A DNA stretch of 34,941 nucleotides. Origin: Clostridiales bacterium (lineage in GTDB: Bacteria > Bacillota > Clostridia > Christensenellales > Pumilibacteraceae). Location: the NCBI GenBank assembly GCA_031286385.1, contig JAITUJ010000022.1:1-34941 (forward strand). The letters are read 5' to 3'. Shown one piece after another: positions 1,613 to 33,114 of the stretch (its first letter is position 1; every line of letters starts with the position of its first letter). Made by a program: the position numbers and the translations under genes. The notes beneath the pieces were generated by a model, which searched no databases, was not told where the DNA came from, and was given only the letters and a program-made list of their open reading frames with translations.

Positions 1613-1997
1613 GGGGATGTCATGGTTTCGACGGGGAGTCCTTAATATTAGACAGCAAGTAGTAGTCGCCTAGTCTACTTTAAAAGAGGCACAAATTAAA
1701 TGCTAACAAAGTAGCAAAATCAAATGTAGTAAGCTTCCCAGCTCCTGCATTTGCAATGGCAGCCTAGAGTAGCCACGGTGCTTGATAGAATGCTTTGACT
1801 ATCAAATCATTGGAATATAAAAAGCCACTGGATTAGTTTTGTGACAACCGAACCTAATCAACACAATATTGTCAGCAAGAGTTTTGGTCTTGCTAAATTG
1901 TACCAAAACTTCCAAGAGCCAAACAATATAGCTAAACTTGTAGAATCTTTTAATTATTACTTTTCGGAAAGGGGTTCGACTCCCCTCATCTCCACCA
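1613..1997 (+). ncRNA. ssrA: tmRNA (transfer-messenger RNA)
   Basis: A 385-nt tmRNA, which with SmpB rescues stalled ribosomes and tags nascent peptides. The 5' GGGGATG (1613-1619) pairs with CATCTCC before A-CCA at the 3' end (encoded CCA 1995-1997). The T-arm GGTTCGACTCC is present. The resume codon is GCT at 1702 and the tag frame runs to TAG at 1765-1767: 21 codons, beginning ANKVAKSNVV and ending FAMAA. The hydrophobic AA end fits the degradation signal read by ClpXP-type proteases. Its 3' end is a well-known integration site for mobile elements, and an accessory block follows it here. Confidence 0.97.
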
Positions 1998-26903: not shown

Positions 26904-27179
26904 TCAAAGCAACCCATATTCATCACCCCCCCTTTCCTCCTTACTTTCTCTCACCCATTTAAGTAGCGTGTAAATGGGTATATCAAACTGCTTGGCTACA
27001 ATGTTGGAGTGTCCATTGACTCTATAATACAAAATCGCATCATGTTTGAGTTGTTTACTATACCCTTTTGTAAACTCAACAAACTTATGTCCACAATTCT
27101 TACACTTAAATACTTGTGAATTCGTCAATGAATGTCCGTTTTTGACTACTTTTAAACTGCTACAATTTTTGCACTTCAT
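26904..27179 (-). CDS. Transposase-like zinc-ribbon/HTH protein, fragment (InsA-like)
   Basis: CKNCSSLKVVKNGHS...FKCKNCGHKFVEFTKGYS is the Cys4 zinc ribbon of IS1/InsA-like and related transposases, followed by an HTH, NIVAKQFDIPIYTLLKWVRE. The catalytic domain is absent; it ends after a few polar residues, so it is an inactive remnant or a stand-alone DNA-binding protein. ATG 27177-27179 is chosen for its GGAG ribosome site 9 nt upstream; an in-frame upstream ATG or other start would add 5 residues. No terminal inverted repeats are seen. Confidence 0.7.
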   Translation of the reverse strand: MKCKNCSSLKVVKNGHSLTNSQVFKCKNCGHKFVEFTKGYSKQLKHDAILYYRVNGHSNIVAKQFDIPIYTLLKWVRESKEERGGDEYGLL

Positions 27180-27258
27180 AAAGTTATACTCCAATTATAA
27201 ACAATAAACACCAGTAATTGTCTTATAAATTTATATTAACACAGCACTATGTATTTTG

Positions 27259-27910: not shown

Positions 27911-28603
27911 TCAAAAGTTCAATCTGGCATCTCGTAATTTGCTGATTGCTTTTTTTTCTATTCTAGACACATAGCTTCTGCAAATCTCTAACTTATTTGC
28001 CACCTCAATCTGTGTCATTGGTCTTTGATTGTTTAGCCCAAAACGCATTATAATTATTTCTCGCTCTCTATCACTTAACACTCTTAACATATCTACTACA
28101 ATGTTATCATACATTACACGCTTTTCTACATTGTCACTTATACTTTCACTTTTGTCAGGCAAAATATCCATGCGCGTAACTTCATTGCCATCTTTGTCAA
28201 TACAAATAGTTTCAAACAATGATACAGTCTGTCTGTGTTTTTTGTTCCCTCGCAAGTACATAAGTATTTCATTTTCTATACACCTAGCTGCGTAAGTAGC
28301 CAAAGCACTTCCCTTGCCTTGCTTAAATGAATTTATAGCTTTTATAAGTCCTATTGCACCTGTAGAAATTAGGTCATCAGCATCCACGCCAGATGAGCTA
28401 TACTTTTTTGATATATGTACAACTAAACGCAAATTGTGCCTGACTAACATTTCTTGAGCAAATTTGTCGCCTTGTGCCACCCTATCCAAATATTCCATCT
28501 CTTCTTCCTGTGACAATGGTTTGGGAAAAGACCCTTTATTGTTTACATAAGAAGTAAAGAAAAAAACCTTGCTTATAAAAGCAAAAAAACTTTCCCAAAT
28601 CAT
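27911..28603 (-). CDS. sigK: RNA polymerase sporulation sigma factor SigK
   Basis: A 230-residue sigma-70-family factor for late mother-cell genes. The N-terminal hydrophobic pro-region FFAFISKVFFFTSYVNNKGS precedes FPKPLSQEEEMEYL, matching pro-SigK; region 2 has NLRLVVHISKKY, DDLISTGAIGLIKAI and YAARCIENEILMYLR, and region 4 has EVANKLEICRSYVSRIEKKA. The reading frame is uninterrupted: no skin element. The pro-sequence implies cleavage by a SpoIVFB-type protease, not in this window. TATACA lies 6 nt before ATG 28601-28603. SigE is related but its start differs. Confidence 0.9.
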   Translation of the reverse strand: MIWESFFAFISKVFFFTSYVNNKGSFPKPLSQEEEMEYLDRVAQGDKFAQEMLVRHNLRLVVHISKKYSSSGVDADDLISTGAIGLIKAINSFKQGKGSALATYAARCIENEILMYLRGNKKHRQTVSLFETICIDKDGNEVTRMDILPDKSESISDNVEKRVMYDNIVVDMLRVLSDREREIIIMRFGLNNQRPMTQIEVANKLEICRSYVSRIEKKAISKLRDARLNF

Positions 28604-30057: not shown

Positions 30058-30201
30058 TTATTTTACTAAACTTCCATTATTATTATACGCAAACCTGTTT
30101 GCTTGTTCCAAACTGTTGAACTCATACTCATACATATTTTCCGAGTAATTGTAAGAGCTGTCATAATCTAATACTGGTTTTTTGCATCTAACTATCCACA
30201 T
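30058..30201 (-). CDS. Small protein of unknown function (47 aa)
   Basis: ATG 30199-30201 is preceded by AGGAG with 8-nt spacing, a good ribosome site. The peptide begins MWIVRCKKPVLDYD and is rich in Tyr, Asn and Glu (NYSENMYEYEFNSLEQANRF). No membrane segment. It lies downstream of the spoVM terminator on the same strand; it may be a separate gene or receive read-through. Confidence 0.5.
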   Translation of the reverse strand: MWIVRCKKPVLDYDSSYNYSENMYEYEFNSLEQANRFAYNNNGSLVK

Positions 30202-30333: not shown

Positions 30334-30429
30334 TTATTTCTCTTGTGCTTGTTTCATTTGTCTTTTGATAAATATTTTTTTTAGAATAGTCCTCGTCATT
30401 TTAGGTGCTTTGATACAAATTATTGTCAT
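30334..30429 (-). CDS. spoVM: Stage V sporulation protein SpoVM (31 aa)
   Basis: A 31-residue basic amphipathic peptide starting MTIICIKAPKMTRTILKKIF. It shares with B. subtilis SpoVM the pattern M....IK.PK....I, including the key Pro9; SpoVM recognises the curved forespore membrane and recruits SpoIVA for coat assembly. An AGGAGG ribosome site 5 nt before ATG 30427-30429 overlaps the thiN stop. Its place directly after rsgA-rpe-thiN is where spoVM lies in Bacillus. The C-terminal extension (KRQMKQAQEK) is a few residues longer than usual. Confidence 0.82.
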   Translation of the reverse strand: MTIICIKAPKMTRTILKKIFIKRQMKQAQEK

Positions 30430-30438
30430 TATAACCTC

Positions 30439-31044
30439 CTACTTTTGATAAAATACAAGTACTGTTCCACTTTTTACAGCGATTTCAATCGTGTCATCAA
30501 CGCTCACATTACTGATTGGAGCAACATTACACAACCCAAAACTGGCATCTTGTATTTTATACAATAATCCTTTGGTATATGATATATGCACGCTACCTAA
30601 AAAAGGTGACAAAGAAACTATTTTATTTTTACCTATATTTTTTTTTATATTTTTATTGACAATTTGTACAAAAAAGTCATCATCTTCTATGCAACAAGAA
30701 GTTTTCAATGTTCCTTCTGCCAATAAAAAATAGTTGAAAAACTCATGGTCAGCTCTACCACCGCGGTACCCCATTATGGTTATGCTCTTAGCACACAACT
30801 CTATTAAGTGCCTCAGTCCAATTTGACCGTCCGTACAATCTTTATTTTTTGGTAGTATTTTCGTTGCAATATCTTTTGGTAATTGCAGAATGGAATCCAT
30901 ATCACCTACAATAATGTCAGGTTTGCAACAATGCTTTGCCCAATTAAATGCCCCATCAGCACACACAATATAGTCTGCTTTTTTTAGTGAGGTTGTGTCT
31001 TTTGGTGCATTCCCGTTTAATAACAAGAAAGTATTTTGATACAT
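30439..31044 (-). CDS. thiN: Thiamine pyrophosphokinase
   Basis: A 201-residue enzyme that transfers pyrophosphate from ATP to thiamine to give thiamine diphosphate. ADYIVCADGAFNWAK and PDIIVGDMDSI are the conserved N-terminal TPK motifs; KDCTDGQIGLRHLIE and GYRGGRADH follow. Normal length. It lies 22 nt after rpe and overlaps the ribosome site of spoVM. With ThiT it forms a salvage route for imported thiamine; no biosynthetic thi genes are in the window. Confidence 0.92.
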   Translation of the reverse strand: MYQNTFLLLNGNAPKDTTSLKKADYIVCADGAFNWAKHCCKPDIIVGDMDSILQLPKDIATKILPKNKDCTDGQIGLRHLIELCAKSITIMGYRGGRADHEFFNYFLLAEGTLKTSCCIEDDDFFVQIVNKNIKKNIGKNKIVSLSPFLGSVHISYTKGLLYKIQDASFGLCNVAPISNVSVDDTIEIAVKSGTVLVFYQK

Positions 31045-31066: not shown

Positions 31067-31786
31067 TCAATCTTCGTCATCATCATAGTCTTCATCTTCC
31101 TCAACGATGTCGGCTATCTGTTGCTGCTGGTTACTTCCATTTTTAAGTTGTGCTATTGTATTTGTCCAGTCAGTCGAATTAAGTATGCTAGACCCTACAA
31201 CCGCAATATCTACGCCTAATTCTCTAAGTTGTTCTATGTTTTGTAAGTTGATACCACCATCTATCTCAATTTCAATATTTCTATCCCCTATCATTTCCTT
31301 CAATTGTTGTAAGCGCTTTAAAGTCTTTTCTATAAACTTTTGTCCGCTAGCACCAGGATAAACACTCATTAACAAAACCATATCCACAAAGTCTAATGTT
31401 TGTCTAATATCATTGAGAGGTGTATCTGGACTGATCGCAACGCCTGCCTTTAATTTGCGTCTTTTTATATCTTTGATGGTAGGTAAAAGATAATCTGTTG
31501 ATGTTGACTCTACATGAATAGTGATGATATCAGCACCTGCATCAGCAAATGCTGCTGTATATCTTTCTGGCTTGACTATCATTAAATGTACATCTAAGGG
31601 TACAGATATATGTTTTTTTAAATCAGCTACCATTTTTGCACCAAATGTAATGTTGCTGACAAATATTCCATCCATCACATCAAAATGAATCATATCTGCA
31701 CCACACTTTTGCAAATCTACAACTGCATTTTGCATATTACCAAAATCAGCACTTAAAATTGACGGTGATATTTTTATTTTTTTCAT
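31067..31786 (-). CDS. rpe: Ribulose-phosphate 3-epimerase
   Basis: A TIM-barrel enzyme interconverting ribulose-5-P and xylulose-5-P in the pentose phosphate pathway. PSILSADFGNM, HFDVMDGIFVSNITFG, DVHLMIVKPERY, EIDGGIN and AVVGSSIL are present. SVYPGASGQKFIE replaces the more common SVNPGFGGQ. The C-terminus carries an extra acidic tail VEEDEDYDDDED after a QQQQ run. I chose ATG 31784-31786 (239 residues): AAGGAGA lies just upstream; an in-frame TTG at 31810 has none. Confidence 0.92.
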   Translation of the reverse strand: MKKIKISPSILSADFGNMQNAVVDLQKCGADMIHFDVMDGIFVSNITFGAKMVADLKKHISVPLDVHLMIVKPERYTAAFADAGADIITIHVESTSTDYLLPTIKDIKRRKLKAGVAISPDTPLNDIRQTLDFVDMVLLMSVYPGASGQKFIEKTLKRLQQLKEMIGDRNIEIEIDGGINLQNIEQLRELGVDIAVVGSSILNSTDWTNTIAQLKNGSNQQQQIADIVEEDEDYDDDED

Positions 31787-31836
31787 TATTCTCCTTGTGC
31801 ATAACAACATATAAAATTTCTATACTCGTTAAAAAT

Positions 31837-32205
31837 TTACCTTATTGGAGGCAAAATTTCCAACCAATGTTCATCAGGGTCACAAATAAAGTATAGCCCT
31901 CTTTGAACATTGTCATAGGATATACAACCCATATTTTTATGCAAATCGTAGGAAGCTTGATAGTCATCTACTCTAAAAGCTAGGTGAGTTTGATTTTCTC
32001 CTAAATCATATTTGCCTATTTTGTCCCTGTTCCATGTCAACTCTAAAAAAAAGTCGCCCTCCCCTTTTAAGAAGACTATTTTATATTCGCCACTTGGATG
32101 TTCTGAGCGTTTAAATTCAGTTAATCCTAGTGCGTCAAAATAAAACTTTATACTTTTTTCTAAATCTATTACATGAAAATTTACATGAACAATTTTAAAT
32201 TTCAT
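31837..32205 (-). CDS. Glyoxalase/lactoylglutathione lyase family protein
   Basis: A 122-residue VOC-fold metalloprotein. HVNFHVIDLEKSIKFYFDAL, ELTWNRDKIGKYDLGENQTH and DPDEHWLEILP supply the expected metal ligands (His, Glu, His, Glu). It may detoxify methylglyoxal with a thiol, but VOC proteins are diverse. AGGAG lies about 6 nt before ATG 32203-32205. Its place between rsgA and rpe is unusual compared with the rsgA-rpe-thiN order of Bacillus. Confidence 0.85.
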   Translation of the reverse strand: MKFKIVHVNFHVIDLEKSIKFYFDALGLTEFKRSEHPSGEYKIVFLKGEGDFFLELTWNRDKIGKYDLGENQTHLAFRVDDYQASYDLHKNMGCISYDNVQRGLYFICDPDEHWLEILPPIR

Positions 32206-32229: not shown

Positions 32230-33114
32230 TTAATACTTCTTTTTTAAACATAAATCACTGTATACTGTGACATAATTGTCATACCTACTTTTGTTTATAT
32301 TGCCCTCTTTTACAGCGTTAATGATATTACAACAAGGCTCTATTGTGTGTGTACAGGTTGAAAATCTACACAAATTTGAATAATTTTTGAATTCAGGTAA
32401 CAACTTACTCAAACTATTGGCATCGATGTCCATTGTATTCAATAAACTAAAACCGGGAGTGTCAACGACTAGTGTGGTCCCATTGCGTATGTTAAAAATT
32501 TTGGAACTTGACGTAGTATGTTTACCTCTATTGCTTTTTGCACTGACATGTCCGACTGTTTGACACTCGTTCATCATCAAGCAGTTAACTATACTAGATT
32601 TACCTACTGCTGACTGTCCAGCCAAACAACAAACTTTGCCATTTATCGTATTTAATAGTGGTTCAATTTGACCTAGTTTTGCACTAACTCTTAATGGACT
32701 CGCACAAACCGCTTTAAATCTATCTTGTAATTGTAGCAAAAATTGAGGTGTAGCAATGTCCATTTTATTTATACATAACACATACTCTATTCCTTGTTTG
32801 ACACAGTTGTACGACAATTTATCTAAAGCCAAGTAATCTGGTTTTGGTATTTCTGCTATGACAGCTATACACATATCAATATTTGCAACTTTGGGTCTAT
32901 TTAGACTGTTCTGTCTGTCCATTACACTCACAATAATAGCTTGTCCTGCCTCTACAATGTATCCAATCCAGTCCCCTACAATGATGTCTTTGCCGCTGTC
33001 TTTTATTTTTTTGCGTGCAATCATATTTACAATTTGTCCGTTTACTAAAACTTGATACTTATTGGAGCTGACCTTAACAACTCTAAAAAATTGTTGTGCA
33101 TCTACATTAAACAC
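32230..33114 (-). CDS. rsgA: Small ribosomal subunit biogenesis GTPase RsgA
   Basis: A 294-residue circularly permuted GTPase: N-terminal OB fold (FRVVKVSSNKYQVLVNGQ), then G4 INKMD, G1 GQSAVGKSS and G3 DTPGFS, then a zinc motif CRFSTCTHTIEPC. It checks 30S subunit maturation. First gene of rsgA-glyoxalase-rpe-thiN-spoVM. It starts with GTG 33112-33114, exactly 6 nt after TATACT of a consensus promoter and with no ribosome site: a likely leaderless GTG start. Confidence 0.93.
   Translation of the reverse strand: MFNVDAQQFFRVVKVSSNKYQVLVNGQIVNMIARKKIKDSGKDIIVGDWIGYIVEAGQAIIVSVMDRQNSLNRPKVANIDMCIAVIAEIPKPDYLALDKLSYNCVKQGIEYVLCINKMDIATPQFLLQLQDRFKAVCASPLRVSAKLGQIEPLLNTINGKVCCLAGQSAVGKSSIVNCLMMNECQTVGHVSAKSNRGKHTTSSSKIFNIRNGTTLVVDTPGFSLLNTMDIDANSLSKLLPEFKNYSNLCRFSTCTHTIEPCCNIINAVKEGNINKSRYDNYVTVYSDLCLKKKY

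Follow-up and report, generated by a model that had tools for sequence, protein, structure and literature searches.

SpoVM is a very short protein, of less than about 35 aa, that labels the surface of the forming spore as the site of coat assembly. In Bacillus, spoVM stands in the gene order rsgA-rpe-thiN-spoVM-rpmB-yloU. Published work (PMC5607322) has established that Pro9 is the only residue conserved across all SpoVMs, that Ile6 is required for SpoIVA binding, that Lys2 and Ile15 are important in the B. subtilis protein, and that a change at Gly486 of SpoIVA rescues the SpoVM I6A mutant; the proximity of rpmB to spoVM has also been noted (PMC5607322). The gene is rarely annotated, and the possible existence of distant clostridial versions was pointed out in 2012 (PMC3533761). 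The locus described here bears out that earlier open suggestion of undiscovered distant clostridial spoVM genes (PMC3533761). Our finding accordingly amounts to an annotation that is correct and useful, with nothing new in kind: a coat-anchor gene already known is now placed in gut Clostridia, mostly uncultured and with small genomes, in which it had been missed by annotation, the models overlooking spoVM because it is so short and so diverged.

The window, by which we mean the whole 34,941-nt stretch of Clostridiales contig JAITUJ010000022.1 that was analysed, carries on its minus strand a reading frame of 31 codons plus stop (30334 to 30429), with its ATG at 30429 and its stop ending at 30334, as read from the window's open reading frames. 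The 31-aa product, MTIICIKAPKMTRTILKKIFIKRQMKQAQEK, contains an IK.PK motif with proline at position 9, and both this start and the AGGAGG ribosome-binding site that the initial annotation had reported 5 nt before the ATG are present as described: the site (30440 to 30435, minus strand) lies within the bases immediately 5' of the start codon, AAAAGTAGGAGGTTATA, and shares bases with the stop codon of the preceding thiamine pyrophosphokinase gene, which is separated from the spoVM start by 9 nt. That gene (thiN, also tpk; 30439 to 31044; TIGR01378 118.3 bits, E 2.9e-34; PF04263) is preceded on the same minus strand by the ribulose-phosphate 3-epimerase gene rpe (31067 to 31810; PF00834, E 1.1e-67), a glyoxalase-like gene (31837 to 32205; PF00903, E 9e-9) and rsgA, encoding the ribosome small-subunit GTPase (32230 to 33114; TIGR00157, E 1.9e-50). 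The proposed placement directly after rsgA-rpe-thiN thus holds for order and strand, but the extra glyoxalase-like gene parts rsgA from rpe, an insertion present in this genome only and not found in the relatives' loci that were read.

Among 60 relatives searched, 27 genomes have an orthologue of 20 to 34 codons, preceded in most cases by a ribosome-binding site, so that 28 loci carry the small gene when the window is included, nearly all of them adjoining rpe, tpk or rsgA. It lies beside rpe in 27 of the 28 and beside tpk in 20, and rsgA is seen in 12 within loci that extend only 1.5 kb; on the 3' side, rpmB follows on the opposite strand in 14 of 28 loci and an Asp23-family gene is present in 12, which matches the Bacillus order. 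Downstream of spoVM, neither the window nor the genome of the same genus (L096) has rpmB. In L007, L011, L014, L016, L018 and L021 no tpk/thiN match lies between rpe and spoVM, and spoVM still comes after rpe. Downstream of spoVM the window holds a 47-codon frame (30058 to 30201, minus strand; MWIVRCKKPVLDYDSS...) with no credible family match. Relatives' loci retrieved through the neighbouring spoVAE gene had no spoVM among them, and the spoVAE/sigK neighbourhood is therefore no conserved context; the nearest spoVAE relatives (L061 to L063) bear isolate names that we take to denote termite-gut samples.

Could so short a frame simply have arisen by chance in AT-rich DNA and come to resemble SpoVM? 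It has only 31 codons, its composition is AT-rich, Pfam and NCBIfam do not recognise it on its own, and elsewhere in the genome there is a further match that is partial and spurious (C13:2675-2719). A profile built from the 27 relatives' SpoVM sequences, with the window row excluded, nevertheless scores the frame at 35.0 bits. Against the window's 1959 six-frame segments this gives E 1.2e-9, the next-best segment standing at 0.17; across the organism's whole genome the frame is the sole match at E <= 10, with an E value of 9.9e-8. Over the 28 loci, identity at codon positions 1, 2 and 3 is 0.60, 0.84 and 0.35, a strong codon-position pattern, and the pooled pN/pS is 0.32. Together, the profile match, the conservation, the codon pattern and the pN/pS lead us to conclude that the frame is a protein-coding gene under protein-level selection; a chance origin is refuted by the conservation of position and frame in 28 nearly always syntenic loci with ribosome-binding sites, and we regard it as having practically no probability left. 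The lack of conservation that the initial annotation had named as evidence against its reading is thus the opposite of what was found.

The other observation it had named against itself, a bona fide spoVM elsewhere in the genome, did not materialise either: no second spoVM was found in the assembly (1.37 Mb, 94 contigs), an absence that is not absolute since the assembly is 87% complete. Two weak SpoVM_broad matches were examined and rejected, one at C13:2675-2719 (16.6 bits) that covers only profile positions 5 to 19 and runs antisense to a 322-aa frame, and one at C5:1511-1555 that is partial and falls within a short frame. The window spoVM is conserved, syntenic and single-copy, and it belongs to the SpoVM family by way of its orthologues.

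This route to family membership is reflected in the profile searches. In the proposed HMM comparison with SpoVM, run as Pfam and NCBIfam scans, PF08183 and NF033436 both miss the window protein when it is taken by itself; of its orthologues, 17 of 28 match NF033436 (SpoVM_broad) and 8 of 28 match NF011327 (SpoVM). The Pumilibacter muris orthologue scores 32.7 bits against NF033436, above the curated cut-off of 31, that of P. intestinalis 29.2 bits, and the window and same-genus copies fall under the reporting level; a search of PDB sequences with the SpoVM alignment gave no match. That alignment (A1; consensus MKIICIKAPK.LRGILRLF.KK) has Met1, Cys5 and Pro9 invariant in all 28 aligned orthologues and isoleucine or valine at position 6 in all except one. 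The window protein retains Ile6, Pro9, Ile15 and Lys7/Lys10 and is without the usual glycine after position 12; threonine replaces Lys2 here and in the same-genus orthologue, and Lys2 is no family-wide invariant. When used as a query against the order, A1 finds a match at E <= 0.01 in 174 of 297 genomes, nearly always in single copy, whereas PF08183 passes its own cut-off in 3 of 297, a gap that is large even though the two thresholds are unlike. A profile of the A1 type would therefore offer a practical gain when spore-forming ability is judged from genomes.

It may be asked whether the position of spoVM has instead been taken over by a different small membrane peptide of unrelated function. 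The SpoVM function is, after all, assigned by analogy, and Cys5, invariant here, is no general SpoVM feature, Pro9 alone being fully conserved (PMC5607322). Against this, orthologues match both NF033436 and NF011327; L031, a PF08183 SpoVM of canonical type from within the order (MRFYCIKLPRFVGAVIRFVLGK..., 33.7 bits against a cut-off of 20.6), whose gene also adjoins rpe and rsgA, shares both Cys5 and the neighbours; and in another family of the order, f29, the homologue is linked to spoIVA, lying 0.1 to 0.9 kb downstream of it and in the same orientation at each of the three loci. An unrelated peptide thus appears extremely improbable. The f29 homologue carries an N-terminal extension with further prolines (KIICIKAPKWMRPLLKPFVKK), and the family's genomes L111, L114 and L119, of 0.8 to 0.9 Mb and listed as 99-100% complete, carry spoIVA; they may be among the smallest to have sporulation genes at all.

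The state of the wider sporulation pathway bears on whether the gene, if a spoVM by descent, is losing its function in this lineage. The window copy is the most diverged of the set, with Thr2 for Lys2 and MTRT in place of FLRG, its amphipathicity is weak and its C-terminus longer, and sigE was not found in the organism's own assembly. The frame is nonetheless intact, its ribosome-binding site is perfect and Ile6, Pro9, Ile15 and Lys7/Lys10 are kept, and the comparison with the same-genus copy gives approximately 10 synonymous differences on 9.7 sites and 6 non-synonymous ones on 32.3 sites. The genome also encodes SpoIVA (E 1.8e-109), which is found in 63 of 74 genomes of the family, SipL (E 1.4e-6) and Spo0A (E 1.6e-40), and genes for SpoVAE and for a SigK-type sigma factor lie in the window itself. 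The latter (27911 to 28603, minus strand) is the only SigE/SigK-class match of such strength in the assembly, most relatives having a pair that includes a strong SigE. With an assembly 87% complete, and with a SigE-type match of at least 329 bits in 16 of 20 other genomes sampled, that of the same genus included, sigE is likelier to be missing from the assembly than lost and probably lies within the absent 13%. A crude scan with a simple consensus returned no sigma-E promoter in the 300 nt upstream of spoVM. Taken as a whole, decay seems very improbable to us, and the frame is very probably the spoVM of a spore-forming, Pumilibacteraceae-like Christensenellales bacterium, a diverged but genuine and ordinary gene, as the initial annotation had proposed on the strength of motif and synteny. 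Elsewhere in the window lie a tmRNA gene (1613 to 1997, plus strand; tag ANKVAKSNVVSFPAPAFAMAA) and a 96-aa frame (26904 to 27194, minus strand), perhaps part of an insertion sequence, that combines a zinc ribbon like that of InsA (PF03811, below cut-off) with a helix-turn-helix-like tail.

The AlphaFold2 model of the window SpoVM (mean pLDDT 89.7) predicts coil over residues 1 to 9 and helix over residues 10 to 30, the helix starting directly after Pro9. We could not confirm the amphipathic pattern claimed at the outset, since shuffled sequences reach hydrophobic moments as high as that of the window helix (p 0.22 to 0.85 over the segments tested); the test has little power, given that the B. 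subtilis SpoVM control itself reaches only p ~0.07. By analogy with B. subtilis (PMC12004969, PMC5607322), the mother cell would produce the peptide as the cell sporulates; its short, flexible N-terminus would end at the helix-breaking Pro9, and the helix that follows would insert in the membrane with a preference for the convex forespore surface. Ile6 would then contact the C-terminal glycine region of SpoIVA and so recruit that protein, whose polymerisation at the forespore surface would form the coat's base; SipL would presumably be layered onto it, as elsewhere in the Clostridia. The C-terminus of the organism's own SpoIVA (...NEGKGGVICILL) has glycine as its seventh-last residue, which, counted from that end, corresponds to B. 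subtilis Gly486; a PDB search with SpoIVA gave no match.

Cys5, directly beside the SpoIVA-contact residue Ile6, is present in 28 of 28 aligned SpoVMs, in further members of the order that were inspected and in the canonical L031 protein, in a sample biased by searches that began from Cys5-containing sequences. The clostridial SpoIVA C-terminus in turn bears a conserved ICIIL or ICILL motif, with a cysteine three residues after the glycine presumed to be touched by Ile6, and this cysteine, fourth from the end, is found at all clostridial SpoIVA loci with a readable C-terminus. In B. subtilis SpoIVA, Cys98 is the sole cysteine, and the C98S variant has been termed cysteine-less (PMC4396682). 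A covalent bond between SpoVM Cys5 and the SpoIVA C-terminal cysteine, locking the coat base to its membrane anchor, is a long shot suggested by the co-occurrence of the two residues.

Among described systems, the C. difficile SpoVM is likewise clostridial, binds SpoIVA and occurs in genomes with SipL; it is controlled by sigma-E, and because C. difficile can largely do without it (PMC5607322), the degree to which B. subtilis depends on SpoVM is not transferable. The P. muris and P. intestinalis proteins belong to the same family and share the gene order of the window, with the difference that the window and same-genus copies score below the reporting level of the NF033436 model that describes them. 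Measured against the B. subtilis SpoVM (PF08183/NF011327), the window protein has 31 residues instead of 26, threonine for Lys2, a cysteine at position 5 and no GG after position 12, and has diverged too far to pass the cut-offs of Pfam and NCBIfam, and its locus gains a glyoxalase-like gene upstream and lacks rpmB downstream; yet the two are alike in being tiny peptides with an IK.PK start that includes Pro9, with Ile6, Ile15 and a helix (here predicted) after Pro9, encoded after rsgA-rpe-thiN in genomes that also encode the partner SpoIVA.
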